Assembly (NCBI GenBank): GCA_947470805.1
Contig: CANIVU010000005.1
Coordinates: forward strand, 62,001-126,000
Source: Acidobacteriota bacterium
GTDB taxonomy: Bacteria; Acidobacteriota; Terriglobia; Bryobacterales; Bryobacteraceae
Direction of reading: 5' to 3'
DNA length: 64,000 bases
The notes beneath the pieces are model-generated. The model saw nothing but the letters and a program-made list of their open reading frames with translations. It searched no databases and was not told the origin of the DNA. This document shows, one piece after another, positions 41,701 through 48,849 of the stretch (position 1 is its first letter; each line of letters opens with the position of its first letter). Both the position numbers and the translations under genes were made by a program.

Positions 41701-42414
41701 TTGAATCGTTCTTTGCTCCTGTTTTTGCTTGCGATGGCCGTTCCCATTTTCGGGGATGAGGTCGCAGCGGATAACACTAACCAACTCAGCCAGCAGGTCC
41801 TGGCCCGCTATTTTGCGGCGATCAACGAACAGTCTCCAAAAACGCGTGGCTTGGAGATGGATATGGATTTCTCCGCCCGCCTCCCGCGCCTGAAAAAAGA
41901 AGGCGCCATGCTCGCCCGCCGCATCGTCTCTTCCCTCGGCAAAATCAGCTACGTCGTCAAAACCTTCACCGGCGATAGCACGGTAAAGAACTACGTCATC
42001 ATCAAGTACATGTCCGGCGAAGTGGAGGTGGCCGACAAGGAAAAGGCGATCGACGCCTCCATCACGCCCAAAAACTACAAGTTCAAATACAAGCGCATGG
42101 AAGCCTTCAACGGCCGCCAGACCCACATCTTCGAACTCAATCCGCGCAAAAAACAGCTCGGCCTCTTCAAAGGCGAACTCTGGATCGACGATGAAAACGC
42201 TCTCCCCGTTCGCGAAGTCGGCATGCTCGTCAAAAGCCCCTCCGTCTTCCTGAAAAAGGTCAACTTCACCCGTACCTACGGCATGTTCAACGGCACCGCC
42301 CTCCCCGCCCGCGTCGAAAGTACCGTCGAAACCCGCATCGCCGGCAAAGCCGAACTCGATATTCGTTACACCAACTTCGCCCCCGAAACGCCCGCCGCTC
42401 CCACCACTCCCTGA
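41701..42414 (+). CDS. Outer-membrane lipoprotein-sorting-like exported protein
   Basis: 237 residues from TTG at 41701 (MNRSLLLFLLAMAVPIFG, signal peptide). The fold follows LolA/LolB-like carriers: QQVLARYFAAINEQSPKTRG at the front, then beta-strands with basic pairs (MEAFNGRQTHIFELNPRKKQ, GLFKGELWIDDENALPVREV), where LWID-ENALPVR is the family mark. The C-terminus is Pro/Thr-rich (APETPAAPTTP). Expected in the periplasm with a lipid or polymer cargo. A sulfatase gene follows after 14 bp. Confidence 0.75.
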   Translation: MNRSLLLFLLAMAVPIFGDEVAADNTNQLSQQVLARYFAAINEQSPKTRGLEMDMDFSARLPRLKKEGAMLARRIVSSLGKISYVVKTFTGDSTVKNYVIIKYMSGEVEVADKEKAIDASITPKNYKFKYKRMEAFNGRQTHIFELNPRKKQLGLFKGELWIDDENALPVREVGMLVKSPSVFLKKVNFTRTYGMFNGTALPARVESTVETRIAGKAELDIRYTNFAPETPAAPTTP

Positions 42415-44765: not shown

Positions 44766-46220
44766 ATGCGCACGCTTTTCCTGAATCCGCCGTCATTCGA
44801 GGGGTTTGATGGTGGCGCCAGCTCGCGCTGGCCGGCTTCCCGCGAAATCGAATCCTACTGGTATCCGGTCTGGTTGACCTACCCCGCCGGTATGTTGCCC
44901 GATTCGAAACTGCTCGACGCGCCGCCCCACAAGGTGTCCATCGAACAGACCGTCGCCATGGCCAAGGACTTCGAACTCCTCGTCCTGTTCACCTCCACCC
45001 CCGGGTTCCACGTCGACGCCAAAATGGCGTCCATGATGAAGGACATCAACCCGAAAATGAAGGTGTGCTTCGTCGGGCCTCCCGTCACCGTCGAACCGGA
45101 AAAGTGCCTCCGCTCCTCCAAAGCCATCGATTTCGTCGTCCGCAAAGAGTTCGATCACCAGATCGTCGACTTCGCCAACGGCAAGCCCCTCGAAGAACTC
45201 CCCGGCGTCAGCTTCCGCAAAGGCGATGGCTTCTGGCACAATCCCGACGGCCCCGTCATCGAAGATCTCGACTCGCTCCCTTGGGCCTCCAAAGTCTACA
45301 AGCGCGATCTCGATTTCACCCGCTACAACGTCCCGTTCCTCAAGAACCCCTTCGTCTCCATCTACACCTCCCGCGGCTGCCCTGCCCAGTGTACGTTCTG
45401 TCTCTGGCCCCAAACCCACTCCGGCCACCGCTGGCGCTTGCGCTCCGTCGCCGACGTCGTCAACGAAGTCAAATGGATCAAGGAAAACTTCCCCGGTATC
45501 CAGGAAGTCTTCTTCGATGACGACACGTTCAACTACCGCAAAGAACGCACCATCCAGATGTGTAAGGAACTCGCCAAGGTCGGCATGACCTGGTCCTGCA
45601 CCTCGCGCGTGACGACAGATTACGACACCCTCGCCGCCATGAAGGACGCCGGCGGCCGCCTCATGATCGTCGGCTACGAATCCGGCGACCAGCAGATCTT
45701 GAAGAACATCAAGAAGGGCGCCACCGTCGACATGGCCCGGCGTTTTACCACCAACGCCCACAAGCTCGGTCTCAAGATCCATGCCGACTTCATCATCGGC
45801 CTCCCCGGTGAAACCCGCGAGTCCATCGAAACGACAATCAACTTCGCCAAGGAACTGGACTGCGAAACCATCCAGGTCTCCCTCGCCCATCCCTACCCCG
45901 GCACCGAGTTCTACGATCACGTCGTCAAAAACGAGCTCATCACCCTCGATTCCATGACCGACGAAATGGGCCACCAGCTGCCCAACATCATCTACCCCGG
46001 TCTCGATCGCGGCGAACTCGTCGGCTCCGTCGAACGCTTCTACTCCGAATACTACTTCCGTCCCAAGGCCGCCTGGCGCATCGTCCGCAACGCCATGTTC
46101 GACGCCAACGACCGCAAGCGCCTCTACAAGGAAGCCCGCGAATACCTCGCCCTCCGCAGCAAGCGCAAGCAGTTCGTCAAGGATCAGAAGCAGGCCTCGC
46201 TCGCCAGTGCCAACCACTAG
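44766..46220 (+). CDS. hpnJ: Hopanoid-associated radical SAM enzyme HpnJ
   Basis: 484 residues. N-terminal B12-binding-like domain (MRTLFLNPPSFEGFDGGASS, the HpnJ opening), then the radical SAM cluster motif SRGCPAQCTFCLW with Cys205, Cys209 and Cys212, GQQ-type GYESGDQQILKNIKKG and IHADFIIGLPGETRESIETT. HpnJ is required to make the cyclitol-ether head group of bacteriohopanepolyols, acting on glucosaminyl bacteriohopanetetrol. It opens a four-gene unit with two EamA-type proteins and hpnI. The squalene-hopene cyclase and hpnK are not in the window. Confidence 0.9.
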   Translation: MRTLFLNPPSFEGFDGGASSRWPASREIESYWYPVWLTYPAGMLPDSKLLDAPPHKVSIEQTVAMAKDFELLVLFTSTPGFHVDAKMASMMKDINPKMKVCFVGPPVTVEPEKCLRSSKAIDFVVRKEFDHQIVDFANGKPLEELPGVSFRKGDGFWHNPDGPVIEDLDSLPWASKVYKRDLDFTRYNVPFLKNPFVSIYTSRGCPAQCTFCLWPQTHSGHRWRLRSVADVVNEVKWIKENFPGIQEVFFDDDTFNYRKERTIQMCKELAKVGMTWSCTSRVTTDYDTLAAMKDAGGRLMIVGYESGDQQILKNIKKGATVDMARRFTTNAHKLGLKIHADFIIGLPGETRESIETTINFAKELDCETIQVSLAHPYPGTEFYDHVVKNELITLDSMTDEMGHQLPNIIYPGLDRGELVGSVERFYSEYYFRPKAAWRIVRNAMFDANDRKRLYKEAREYLALRSKRKQFVKDQKQASLASANH

Positions 46221-46617
46221 CGCCGCAAGCGAAAAACTGGTCTGGAAAACGCGGCTCTTCGCCGCCATCGTCGTCCTCACCAACGTCACCGGCAATTTCG
46301 CCCTCTCCTGGGGCATCAAACACGGAGCCGCCATGGACGGCTCCGCCTGGTCGTTCGTCCGCGTCATCTTCGACCCCTGGGTCTTCTGCGGCATCCTCCT
46401 CCTATCCGGCTGGGTCCTCTCCCGCATGGCCCTCCTCAGCTGGGCGGACTTGAGCTACGTCATCCCCGTCACCTCCGTCGGCTTCGTCATGAACGCCATC
46501 ATGGGTGCCGTCTTCCTCGGCGAAATCATCACCCCCACCCGCTGGCTCGGAACGCTTTGCATCGTTGGCGGCACCGTCCTGGTCGGCCTCACCGCCCCCA
46601 AAACGGAGACCCAATAA
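46207..46617 (+). CDS. Four-helix EamA/SMR-type half-transporter 1
   Basis: 136 residues, four membrane helices (AAIVVLTNVTGNFALSWGIK, VFCGILLLSGWVLSRMALLS, SYVIPVTSVGFVMNAIMGAV, LGTLCIVGGTVLVGLTAPK). The LGEIITPTRWLGTLCIVGGT segment is the EamA pattern, but only one half-unit is present. It starts 14 bp before the end of hpnJ and is followed by a paralogue whose start overlaps its stop. Half-size pairs of this kind (for example ArnE/ArnF) form heterodimers that flip lipid-linked sugars. A role in hopanoid flipping is inferred from position. Confidence 0.8.
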   Translation: MPTTSAASEKLVWKTRLFAAIVVLTNVTGNFALSWGIKHGAAMDGSAWSFVRVIFDPWVFCGILLLSGWVLSRMALLSWADLSYVIPVTSVGFVMNAIMGAVFLGEIITPTRWLGTLCIVGGTVLVGLTAPKTETQ

Positions 46618-46979
46618 TGGCCTGGCTCTACGTCGCCATCATCGTCATTTCCACCGTCGCCAGTGACCTCCTCCAAAGCTGGGAAATGAAGCGCCAGGGC
46701 GAAGTCACCGATTTCGGCGTCGGCGGCATCGGCCGCCTCCTGAAACTCCTCCTCACCAAAGGCCCCCTCATCGGGTCCATCATCTTCCTCGCCATTTCTT
46801 TCTATGCGTTCCTCGCCCTCCTAGCCGTGGCCGACTTAAGCTTCGCCGTCCCCGCCACCGCCTTAAGCCTGGTCGCCGAAACCATCCTCGCCCGCCTCGT
46901 CCTCAAGGAACGCGTCACCCCCGCCCGCTGGGGCGGCACCGTCCTCGTCGCCATCGGCGTCGCTCTTCTGGCACTCTAG
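46617..46979 (+). CDS. Four-helix EamA/SMR-type half-transporter 2
   Basis: 120 residues from ATG 46617, overlapping the previous stop by one base. Four helices: LYVAIIVISTVASDLLQSWE, GSIIFLAISFYAFLALLAVA, FAVPATALSLVAETILARLV and RWGGTVLVAIGVALLAL. Shares the pattern P-A-R-W-x-G-T-x-L-x-A-x-G with its neighbour. The first helices differ, so the two are a diverged pair, not recent duplicates. Its stop is 10 bp from the hpnI start. Confidence 0.8.
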   Translation: MAWLYVAIIVISTVASDLLQSWEMKRQGEVTDFGVGGIGRLLKLLLTKGPLIGSIIFLAISFYAFLALLAVADLSFAVPATALSLVAETILARLVLKERVTPARWGGTVLVAIGVALLAL

Positions 46980-46989
46980 AGAATCCCCC

Positions 46990-48087
46990 ATGGACTGGCT
47001 GTTTCTCATCCCCATCGGCTACCAGTTCGTCGCGCTCATTGCGTGCATCAAACGCATGTTCCAGACGCGCCCCCAGCCGGAGGCCATGCCCCCCATCTCC
47101 ATCCTCAAGCCCGTCCGCGGGGCCGACCCCCTCTTCTACTCCGTCGTCTGCTCCCACGCCCAACAGGATTACCCCCACTTCGAACTCCTCTTCGCCGTCG
47201 CCGATATGGACGACCCCGCCGTTCCCATCATTGAACGCGCCATCGCCGAATTCCCGAACCGCCGCATCCGCCTGATCGTCCGAAATACCCAAACCCCTAA
47301 CCCCAAAGTCGGCGCCCTCATCGACCTCGAAAAGGAAGCCCTCTACGACGTCTTCCTCGTCAACGATGGCGACATCCGCGTCCCCCAGGGCTACCTGAAA
47401 ACGTTAGCCGCCGAACTCGAACAACCCAACACCGGCCTCGTCACCGCCCTTTACCGCGCCCGCGCCGAACACCTCCCCGGCCAAGTGGAGGCCCTCGGCG
47501 TCTCCACCGATTTCGCTCCCTCCACACTAGTCGCCCCTTTCGTCGGCGTCACCGAATTCGCCATGGGCTCCACCCTCTTCTTCCGCCGTAGCGATCTCAA
47601 TGCCATCGGCGGTTTCGCCGCCCTCGGCGACTACCTCGCCGACGACTACCAACTCGGCCGCCTCATCACCCGCGCCGGAAAGCGCACCCACCTCTCCGCC
47701 TGCATCGTCGAAACCAGCCTCGGCGCCCAAACCTGGCGCGACGCCTGGGAGCACCAGCTCCGCTGGGCCCGCACCATCCGCGTCTCCCGCGGCGGCGTCC
47801 TGGGCTACCTCGGCTTGCCCGTCACCTTCGGCACGCTATGGGCCCTGGTGGCGTTCCTCACCGGCCATCCCTACATGGGCTTCATCATATTCGCCCTCCG
47901 TTTCAACGTCGCCGTCCTCGCCGGCTTGATGATCCTCGAAGACCGCAACGTCGTCTTCCGCCTCTCCCTCCTGCCCCTCCGCGACATGGCCGGCGTCGCC
48001 ATCTGGTTCGCCGGCCTCTTCGGCAACACAGTCGAATGGGGCGGCCGCCGTCTCACCCTCCATCCCGACGGTCGCATCCGTGACTGA
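46990..48087 (+). CDS. hpnI: Hopanoid-associated glycosyltransferase HpnI
   Basis: 365 residues. N-terminal helix (MDWLFLIPIGYQFVALIACI), a GT21-type catalytic domain (PPISILKPVRGADPLFYSVV; VFLVNDGDIRVPQ with D-x-D; DYLADDYQLG; and the HQLRWART motif, i.e. the D, D, Q-x-x-RW set of ceramide-glucosyltransferase-like enzymes), then C-terminal helices (YLGLPVTFGTLWALVAFLTG). HpnI transfers N-acetylglucosamine to bacteriohopanetetrol. The usual deacetylase HpnK is not found here. Last gene of the hopanoid unit; the tRNA follows after 59 bp. Confidence 0.9.
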   Translation: MDWLFLIPIGYQFVALIACIKRMFQTRPQPEAMPPISILKPVRGADPLFYSVVCSHAQQDYPHFELLFAVADMDDPAVPIIERAIAEFPNRRIRLIVRNTQTPNPKVGALIDLEKEALYDVFLVNDGDIRVPQGYLKTLAAELEQPNTGLVTALYRARAEHLPGQVEALGVSTDFAPSTLVAPFVGVTEFAMGSTLFFRRSDLNAIGGFAALGDYLADDYQLGRLITRAGKRTHLSACIVETSLGAQTWRDAWEHQLRWARTIRVSRGGVLGYLGLPVTFGTLWALVAFLTGHPYMGFIIFALRFNVAVLAGLMILEDRNVVFRLSLLPLRDMAGVAIWFAGLFGNTVEWGGRRLTLHPDGRIRD

Positions 48088-48146
48088 AAAATCTCCCCCC
48101 ATTCCCACGCCAATCGTGGTATTCTAAAAGACGTCACGCCGTTTAT

Positions 48147-48223
48147 GCGCCCGTAGCTCAGCTGGATAGAGCGTCTGGCTACGAACCAGAAGGCCGGGTG
48201 TTCGAATCACTCCGGGCGCACCA
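48147..48223 (+). tRNA. tRNA-Arg (ACG anticodon)
   Basis: 77 bases including an encoded CCA. Acceptor arm GCGCCCG pairs with CGGGCGC before ACCA; D arm GCTCAGCTGGATAGAGC; anticodon stem TCTGG/CCAGA around the loop CTACGAA (anticodon ACG); T arm GGGTG-TTCGAAT-CACTC. Every stem closes. A 57-bp direct repeat begins 27 bp downstream, which makes this tRNA the likely anchor of the element. Confidence 0.95.
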
Positions 48224-48249
48224 TAAAAAACTCCGACATATAGTTCGTT

Positions 48250-48306
48250 GAGTGCCGTGACTAGGTTCGGGAACACAGCGCCGTTTAGGTCGCTGTGCCG
48301 GATTTT
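48250..48306. repeat. Left 57-bp direct repeat, candidate att site
   Basis: Identical base for base to 50872-50928. It contains arms CACAGCG and CGCTGTG around a 10-bp centre, a form that suits a recombinase crossover site. On the minus strand it encodes the last part of the recombinase (IRHSDLNGAVFPNLVTAL). Confidence 0.9.
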
Positions 48307-48849
48307 GTGCGGGGTCTGTGTTTCCTGGGCTTTTCGCATTGCCTCTGGCACCTGCGGGTGGACAGAGTGCCTCGTCGTGGAGAAGTCGCTGTGTCCGGCC
48401 AGGTAGGCCAGCGTGTACGGGTCCATGACAGCCGCCCACCGGGTGAGGCAGGTACGCCGGAACGTGTAGATGGGGCAGCGACAGACTTCGGCCAACTCGC
48501 ACGCCGCCGTGTGCTGCTTCTTGATGCTGAACGGTTCAATGTGACCGCTCCGCGTGGGGGCAGGGAACACCCACTCCGAATCACCGGCAAGCGTCCGCCG
48601 CATCTCCAGCACGCTTCGCTCATTGTCCAATTCGTCCAGTAAAGCCGGCTGCCACTCGACGGCGCGTTTCGTCCTCTTCGAGATTCTTTGTTACGGAGAG
48701 GTCCATAACAGTCACGCCTTGGCCTGCGCAATTCGGTGCCCGGTTTTCGCCCCGTCGCGCCAGGCGGCATTCAATAGCCTCCCGTATAAAAAGCGAGCTT
48801 TCAATCGCTGCCATTCGGAATCGGTAGAATGCTAGTCAACTATCCTGCT

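Follow-up and report, generated by a model that had tools for sequence, protein, structure and literature searches.

Paired EamA-type half-transporters beside the hopanoid genes hpnJ and hpnI in acidobacteria: a candidate flippase for glycosylated hopanoids

Hopanoids order bacterial membranes, and fossil hopanoids serve as biomarkers. The enzymes HpnI (a GT21-type glycosyltransferase) and HpnJ (a radical SAM protein) presumably act at the cytoplasmic side of the membrane; their product must change leaflet before leaving for the outer membrane. Which protein performs this step? The literature examined, much of it available in part, assigns no protein to the crossing of glycosylated hopanoids from the cytoplasmic face to the other leaflet. 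A candidate is offered by a locus in which two small genes, E1 and E2, lie between hpnJ and hpnI. It was found in a stretch of 64,000 nucleotides (the window; positions 62001-126000 of contig C5) of the acidobacterial genome G000 (8.7 Mb, 220 contigs); the closest titled relatives of the locus are metagenome-assembled genomes named Candidatus Sulfopaludibacter or Bryobacterales. Judging from gene order and sequence, the products of E1 and E2 probably form a heterodimer that flips glycosylated hopanoid across the inner membrane, as HpnL may do elsewhere. According to the open reading frames (ORFs) and the DNA, the genes follow one another on a single strand at positions 44766-48087:

44766-46220, + strand: hpnJ, B12-binding radical SAM protein, cyclitol ether step of bacteriohopanetetrol (BHT); TIGR03471, 754.8 bits against a cut-off of 577.6
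46207-46617, + strand: E1, putative half-transporter of EamA/small multidrug resistance (SMR) type, first subunit; EamA (PF00892) 25.1 bits, below the cut-off of 28.2; profile A1
46617-46979, + strand: E2, putative half-transporter of EamA/SMR type, second subunit; EamA 28.7 bits, cut-off 28.2; profile A2
46990-48087, + strand: hpnI, GT21-type glycosyltransferase, BHT glycosylation; TIGR03472 313.2 bits, Glyco_transf_21 149.8 bits

The genes hpnJ and E1 overlap by 14 bp (E1 starts with GTG), E1 and E2 overlap by 1 bp (the ATG of E2 lies within TAATG), and a gap of 10 bp separates E2 from hpnI; the tight unit and its overlaps (14 and 1 bp), as given in the preliminary description, were thus confirmed. 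The deduced proteins E1 and E2 consist of 136 and 120 aa, respectively, a size in keeping with the half-size four-helix subunits (about 100-140 aa) of the SMR lipid subtype. HpnJ of the window contains Radical_SAM and B12-binding domains (Pfam), and the assignment of HpnI is marginal, its score being just above the TIGR03472 cut-off of 310. Genome G000 should make hopanoids because HpnJ, two HpnI proteins (the second at C119:16876-17985, locus L226, 320.6 bits), HpnH (539.9 bits), and two matches of squalene-hopene cyclase (SHC) over the cut-off are encoded in it. In whole-genome profile searches of G000, HpnN did not reach its cut-off, and no HpnK was found over the cut-off (best score 85.5 bits) or at E up to 1e-30; the absence of HpnK, also claimed in the preliminary description, holds for the window's own genome. 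By its reading, the gene following the second hpnI copy resembles one for a membrane-bound fatty acid hydroxylase, which possibly points to another lipid substrate there.

We analyzed the recurrence of the pair in two samples. The first was drawn from 396 acidobacterial genomes, 60 of which encode HpnJ over the cut-off; together with G208 and G103, in which HpnJ is truncated or split, they make up the 62 genomes counted below. The second comprises the loci of the best 80 relatives of the window's HpnJ by score; it overlaps with the first at least once (L168 and L043). The surveyed genomes are related, so the counts lack independence, and gene positions in fetched loci were taken from stop-to-stop frames with approximate start positions. 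Profiles A1 (E1, 41 rows) and A2 (E2, 29 rows) were built from rows picked for diversity among 123 pairs, a number that counts the window pair twice and includes both L043 and L168; the partial E1 of L082 was excluded from A1.

An adjacent E1-E2 pair was detected with these profiles in 58 of the 62 genomes, which belong to families f2 (43 genomes), f33 (5), f1, the family of the window (3), f11, f51, and f78 (2 each), and f71 (1). In 54 genomes, the pair follows hpnJ on its strand at a distance of no more than 6 kb. As for the four other pairs, one was located about 8 kb downstream of hpnJ (G130), one on a contig different from that of hpnJ, with both near contig ends (G195), and two adjoin hpnK on another contig than hpnJ (G267, G291). 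The complete block hpnJ-E1-E2-hpnI was present in 68 of the 80 relatives' loci, and in 66 of these 68 no more than 150 bp separate the start of the E1 domain from the hpnJ stop. Six of the 12 loci without the block stop within 450 bp after hpnJ; the genomes of the remaining six (L113, L144, L154, L162, L165, L166) hold pair-like matches elsewhere, and in five of them a pair adjoins an HpnJ or HpnI homologue (L213-L216, L218-L220). In the sixth, G399, only E1 stands between hpnJ and hpnI; this reading of the negative loci left out weaker matches on G399:C427 and G398:C68. The survey of gene neighbourhoods, which had been proposed as a check, thus favours the link to hopanoid genes. Chance neighbourhood was considered and is ruled out by the 54 genomes and 68 loci with the pair at hpnJ. 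Three of the loci (L168, L118, L145) are titled Bordetella parapertussis, Acidimicrobiia, and Armatimonadetes, respectively; their HpnJ proteins are 77-79% identical to that of the window, and the titles are probably mislabelled.

Beyond Acidobacteriota, the sample comprised five proteobacterial plasmid loci. On a Mycetohabitans plasmid, hpnI-hpnJ-hpnK is followed by a gene for an LPG_synthase_TM protein; other plasmid loci contain the same kinds of genes in rearranged order. A similarity search located an HpnL-type gene within 2 kb of hpnJ in all five, and the two plasmid HpnL proteins that were scored reached 337.3 and 299.1 bits, both over the HpnL (TIGR03476) cut-off of 195.65. We failed to find an EamA match within these five loci. 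Four of the 62 acidobacterial genomes lack the pair (G029, G278, G192, G208). An HpnL-family gene adjoins hpnJ in only two of the 62, G029 (111.7 bits) and G278 (151.7 bits), both below the cut-off; G192 has an HpnL-family fragment at a contig edge, and G208 gave no HpnL match, with neither the pair nor HpnL between hpnJ and hpnI on its 3.3 kb contig. Conversely, HpnL was found at the pair locus in none of the 58 pair genomes. Genome G000 had no match to TIGR03476 at E up to 0.001, nor do E1 and E2 of the window match this model. The pair stands in the slot that HpnL holds elsewhere, a finding that is new here; at the loci seen, the two were never present together.

HpnL resembles the pair in its slot by hpnI, hpnJ, and hpnK, in being an integral membrane protein, and in being flippase-like by family name; it differs in belonging to Pfam PF03706 (LPG_synthase_TM) and in forming one chain of about 350 aa. 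Three of the four HpnL proteins scanned also match the flippase-like model TIGR00374, one of them over the cut-off. According to the available part of PMC12583986, the function of hpnL has not been established. Two more HpnL-family matches (136 and 120.9 bits) are located on G278:C20; their distances to the SHC match in this genome are about 8 and 13 kb.

Besides HpnJ, the linkage of the pair extends to HpnI and HpnK. Among the 54 pairs at hpnJ loci, HpnI is near in 12, HpnK in 8, and both in 7; the gene order where both are present is hpnJ-hpnK-E1-E2-hpnI, for example in G259. Downstream of hpnK and E1 in G291, E2 and HpnI are fused in frame into a protein of 675 aa (L183:7687-9711), in which EamA covers residues 185-254 and HpnI residues 295-671 with more than 380 bits, without a stop between them. 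Such a fusion and the tight overlap of the genes would also be compatible with a role in assembly, in which the pair would anchor HpnI and HpnJ in the membrane or serve as their scaffold and would transport nothing. We regard this role as improbable, since polar helix-1 positions are conserved (N/D30 in E1 and D/E17 in E2), as are E98 and R104 in 29 of 29 E2 sequences, and since the slot is held elsewhere by the unrelated HpnL, a member of a flippase-like family.

HpnK does not alternate with the pair as HpnL does: 10 of the 12 genomes with HpnK over the cut-off carry the pair. HpnK-family matches at E up to 1e-30 were found in 59 of the 62 genomes, most of them below the cut-off, so these genomes may encode other deacetylases. 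The pair as a substitute for absent HpnK was also considered; it is ruled out by the 10 of 58 pair genomes with HpnK over the cut-off. Deacetylase activity would also be unexpected for EamA proteins. The absence of HpnK does not explain the pair; hpnI and hpnJ without hpnK are recorded for acidobacteria of subdivisions 1 and 3 in the accessible portion of PMC5462960.

Regarding protein type, profiles A1 and A2 are homologous to each other (hhalign, 99.9%). E2 aligns over its full length with Escherichia coli ArnE (95.9%), and E1 aligns with it by its second half (95.1%), whereas ArnF gave only 12% and 3%. Of the comparison with ArnE/ArnF made in the preliminary description, the ArnE half is therefore upheld and the ArnF half is not. 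ArnE was the sole NCBIfam model matched by all 29 E2 members, and each Qac-type model was matched by at most 3 of them. E2 of the window is nevertheless ArnE-like and not an ArnE, because it scored 17.4 bits against a cut-off of 92 and its QacJ match was equal in bits; E1 of the window had no match to the ArnE model at E up to 1. The EamA model was matched by 29 of 29 E2 members at E up to 0.01, and the corresponding scan of E1 covered that of the window.

An AlphaFold model of E1 consists of four long helices and one short helix (predicted local distance difference test, pLDDT, 89.2). Its nine top Foldseek matches are chains of the SMR exporters EmrE and Gdx-Clo, with E values of 0.03 to 0.94 and template modelling (TM) scores by target length of 0.57 to 0.76. 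These fold matches, together with the acidic helix-1 residue retained in E2 and the weak match of the window's E2 to QacJ and QacCGHJ, nearly equal to that with ArnE, speak for an exporter of small molecules or cations (SMR efflux or a proton-coupled metabolite exporter), which would be a chance member of the operon or a remover of an HpnJ by-product. However, the linkage recurs in several acidobacterial families, E2 is fused to HpnI in one genome, and single relatives of the pair adjoin HpnI or HpnK in genomes without HpnJ over the cut-off. ArnE is matched by every E2 member, unlike the Qac-type models. An exporter of this kind seems to us improbable. In a comparison with EmrE and Gdx, the pair differs in operon context, in an E2-EmrE hhalign value of only 48%, and in the high Foldseek E values.

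According to the accessible part of PMC9574504, opposite Arg/Lys bias marks antiparallel pairs and is found in over 95% of SMR pairs encoded by adjacent genes, and lipid SMRs often have Asn at the central Glu position. The bias of E2 was negative in 123 of 123 pairs (mean -8.3) and that of E1 positive in 92 (mean +1.6); the value for E1 exceeds that for E2 in every pair, and the signs are strictly opposite in 92. In the window, E1 has a weak N-in and E2 a strong N-out charge bias. The helix-1 position that we equate with the central Glu, assuming the EmrE spacing, is occupied in E1 by Asn in 31 of 41 sequences and by Asp in 10 (Asn30 in the window), and in E2 by Asp in 22 of 29 and by Glu in 7 (Asp17 in the window). 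The frequent Asn of E1 would, if the positions correspond, be a likeness to ArnE/ArnF and lipid SMRs. With an acidic residue in one subunit and an amide in the other, a dimer of the two may be asymmetric and might have a single proton site.

Single-gene relatives of the pair extend the comparison. A single relative was located after HpnI and/or HpnK in five genomes without HpnJ over the cut-off (L193-L197). In L194, a family scan gave the operon shc-hpnH-hpnA-hpnG-hpnI-hpnK-E-DegT, where E is the single EamA gene (SHC 654.3 bits, HpnI 323.8, HpnK 390.1; HpnG below cut-off); its DegT aminotransferase scored 182.8 bits with the ArnB model, whose cut-off is 631. A similar single accompanied by an aminotransferase was found in L192, with no HpnI or HpnK in the neighbourhood. 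SHC was over the cut-off in all eight tested genomes with such singles, among them G196 and G306, whose neighbourhoods were unread. The DegT-type aminotransferase recalls ArnB, and an amino sugar for the hopanoid may, by this analogy, be the product; the layout of glycosyltransferase, deacylase, aminotransferase, and small flippase is reminiscent of the E. coli arn operon. A phylogenetic tree, with few columns and bootstrap not settled, placed E2 in one clade (99/98), left E1 unresolved, and grouped six singles outside the pair in a clade of their own (100/99), which fits one old duplication. An aminotransferase of DegT/DnrJ/EryC1 type follows the single EamA gene in L192, L193, L194, L196, and L197, with only L194 assigned by family scan.

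The likeness to the ArnE/ArnF flippase of undecaprenyl-phosphate aminoarabinose, which extends to a pair of neighbouring half-size genes placed, together with a glycosyltransferase, in a context of lipid modification, raises another explanation: the pair may flip a polyprenyl-phosphate sugar, that is, a donor lipid, for a periplasmic HpnI or another enzyme. The hhalign resemblance of E1 and E2 to ArnE fits it, as does the L194 DegT gene with its ArnB-model match, which follows a single EamA gene as in the E. coli arn operon. However, HpnI is of GT21 type, a family from which use of a nucleotide sugar is expected, and HpnJ, as a radical SAM protein, is expected in the cytosol, so glycosylation should precede flipping. 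No recurrent second glycosyltransferase was noticed at the locus, though no systematic search for one was made. Flipping of a donor lipid appears to us unlikely, if worth keeping in mind. As for its differences from ArnE/ArnF, the pair scores far below the ArnE cut-off and hardly matches ArnF, it is linked to hopanoid genes, and E2 retains an acidic residue.

The favoured reading, flipping of glycosylated hopanoid, would proceed as follows. E1 and E2 would form an antiparallel heterodimer of SMR type in the inner membrane. HpnI would glycosylate BHT at the cytoplasmic side, HpnJ, plus HpnK where present, would remodel the sugar, and the E1-E2 dimer would flip the glyco- or cyclitol-hopanoid to the periplasmic leaflet, filling the position held by HpnL in other hopanoid makers; in Bryobacterales, the flipped lipid may then pass to a LolA-like periplasmic carrier. 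For the change of leaflet, the simplest candidates are those encoded in the same operon: an SMR-type heterodimer, HpnL, or the homodimer of a single gene's product. The conserved linkage, the homology of E1 and E2, their differing charge bias, the SMR-like model of E1, the exclusion of HpnL, and the E2-HpnI fusion support this reading, and from them we infer the heterodimer, the flipping with its substrate and direction, and the hand-over to a carrier.

Several observations weigh against it. E1 members matched phn_DUF6 most often (38 of 41), ahead of ArnE (22 of 41); the E1 model had no Foldseek match at E up to 0.001; and the Arg/Lys bias of E1 was zero in 22 of the 123 pairs and -1 in 9. An acidic helix-1 residue is kept in 29 of 29 E2 sequences, unlike in typical lipid SMRs. 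As to the genomic evidence, 43 of the 58 pair genomes come from one family (f2) and are far from independent, and 41 of the 54 pairs at hpnJ loci, mostly of the same family, lack both HpnI and HpnK nearby. The exclusion of HpnL rests on few independent lineages, and seven pair genomes contain HpnL-family matches elsewhere, below the cut-off and up to 94 bits. Second pairs were found apart from hpn genes in G257 and G399 (L187, L217, L221), those at L217 and L221 being full pairs of the genome with a lone E1 at hpnJ. The pair is also present in four genomes of 84 to 99% completeness (G169, G215, G201, G074), in which HpnJ is not over the cut-off and SHC gives no match at E up to 1e-60; therefore, related pairs can serve another substrate. 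Finally, just one match was obtained in each of 54 of the 396 genomes, of which 38 belong to family f24, and no hpn gene was present at L198, the sole f24 single whose neighbourhood was read.

A wider proposal is that E1-E2 and HpnL are unrelated yet interchangeable flippases of glycosylated hopanoids and that the acidobacterial E1-E2 route, with a LolA-like carrier in Bryobacterales, runs without HpnN; we put it forward tentatively, as it is rather doubtful at present. HpnN, a hopanoid transporter of resistance-nodulation-division (RND) type leading to the outer membrane, would serve the same export path and is a protein of another type than E1-E2. It was over the cut-off in none of 63 genomes, and HpnN-like matches at E up to 1e-20 were found among them only in G029 and G208, both without the pair.

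No such hopanoid flippase is proposed in titles and abstract openings among the literature matches listed, in which subscription literature is mostly uncovered, so the novelty is unproven. The main text of a survey of acidobacterial hopanoid genes (PMC5462960), as far as available, contains no words beginning with "transport", and the available part of PMC12654047 lists an EamA-like transporter among the domains of the Leptospirillum ferriphilum hopanoid cluster, giving it no role. If the favoured reading is true, paired lipid-type SMR transporters would extend from lipid A modification to triterpenoid lipids, with a hint of how acidobacteria without recognisable HpnN move hopanoids; if the pair and HpnL are interchangeable, HpnL too would gain a function. 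A protein pair of 120-136 aa in the gene slot of HpnL makes both proposals directly testable.

The carrier considered above is encoded upstream of hpnJ:

41701-42414, + strand: LolA-like protein, candidate periplasmic lipid carrier; hydrophobic N-terminus, signal peptide by eye

The protein scored 24.0 bits with LolA_like (PF17131), below the cut-off of 30, and its profile matches a putative lipoprotein-sorting protein in the PDB (3bk5) with E 7e-4. Its AlphaFold model (pLDDT 91.2) gave 27 Foldseek matches at E up to 0.001 (from 1e-6) with TM-scores of only 0.2 to 0.45; a DUF1329 protein came first, and LolA, LolB, RseB, and MucB chains were among them. The gene product bears some resemblance to the LolA/LolB carriers in its profile and model matches; it differs from them in falling below the Pfam cut-off, in TM-scores not exceeding 0.45, and in adjoining hopanoid genes. 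In 51 of the 80 relatives, a LolA-like homologue precedes hpnJ on its strand by no more than 3 kb, and in 45 of them by no more than 300 bp. Among the 62 genomes, it was found upstream of hpnJ in two, both of the window's family, with the window copy counted apart. In the window, the gene is 2.3 kb upstream of hpnJ, and the interval contains one antisense frame as well as genes that, by eye, are sulfatase-like and cupin-like. We infer that the LolA-like protein may be a member of the system, as a periplasmic hopanoid carrier.

The E1-E2 pairs of the four genomes without HpnJ over the cut-off or an SHC match (E up to 1e-60) are those at L188, L189, L190, and L191. Second pairs at L184, L185, and L186 lie 3.6 to 5.4 kb from an HpnI homologue, and the clusters around those of L184 and L186 read like asparagine-synthase and sugar-epimerase genes. 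In the window, hpnI is followed by a tRNA-Arg gene (48147-48223), which is overlapped by a minus-strand ORF (48124-48630) resembling, by eye, the C-terminal end of a phage-type integrase, possibly the remnant of an integrated element.

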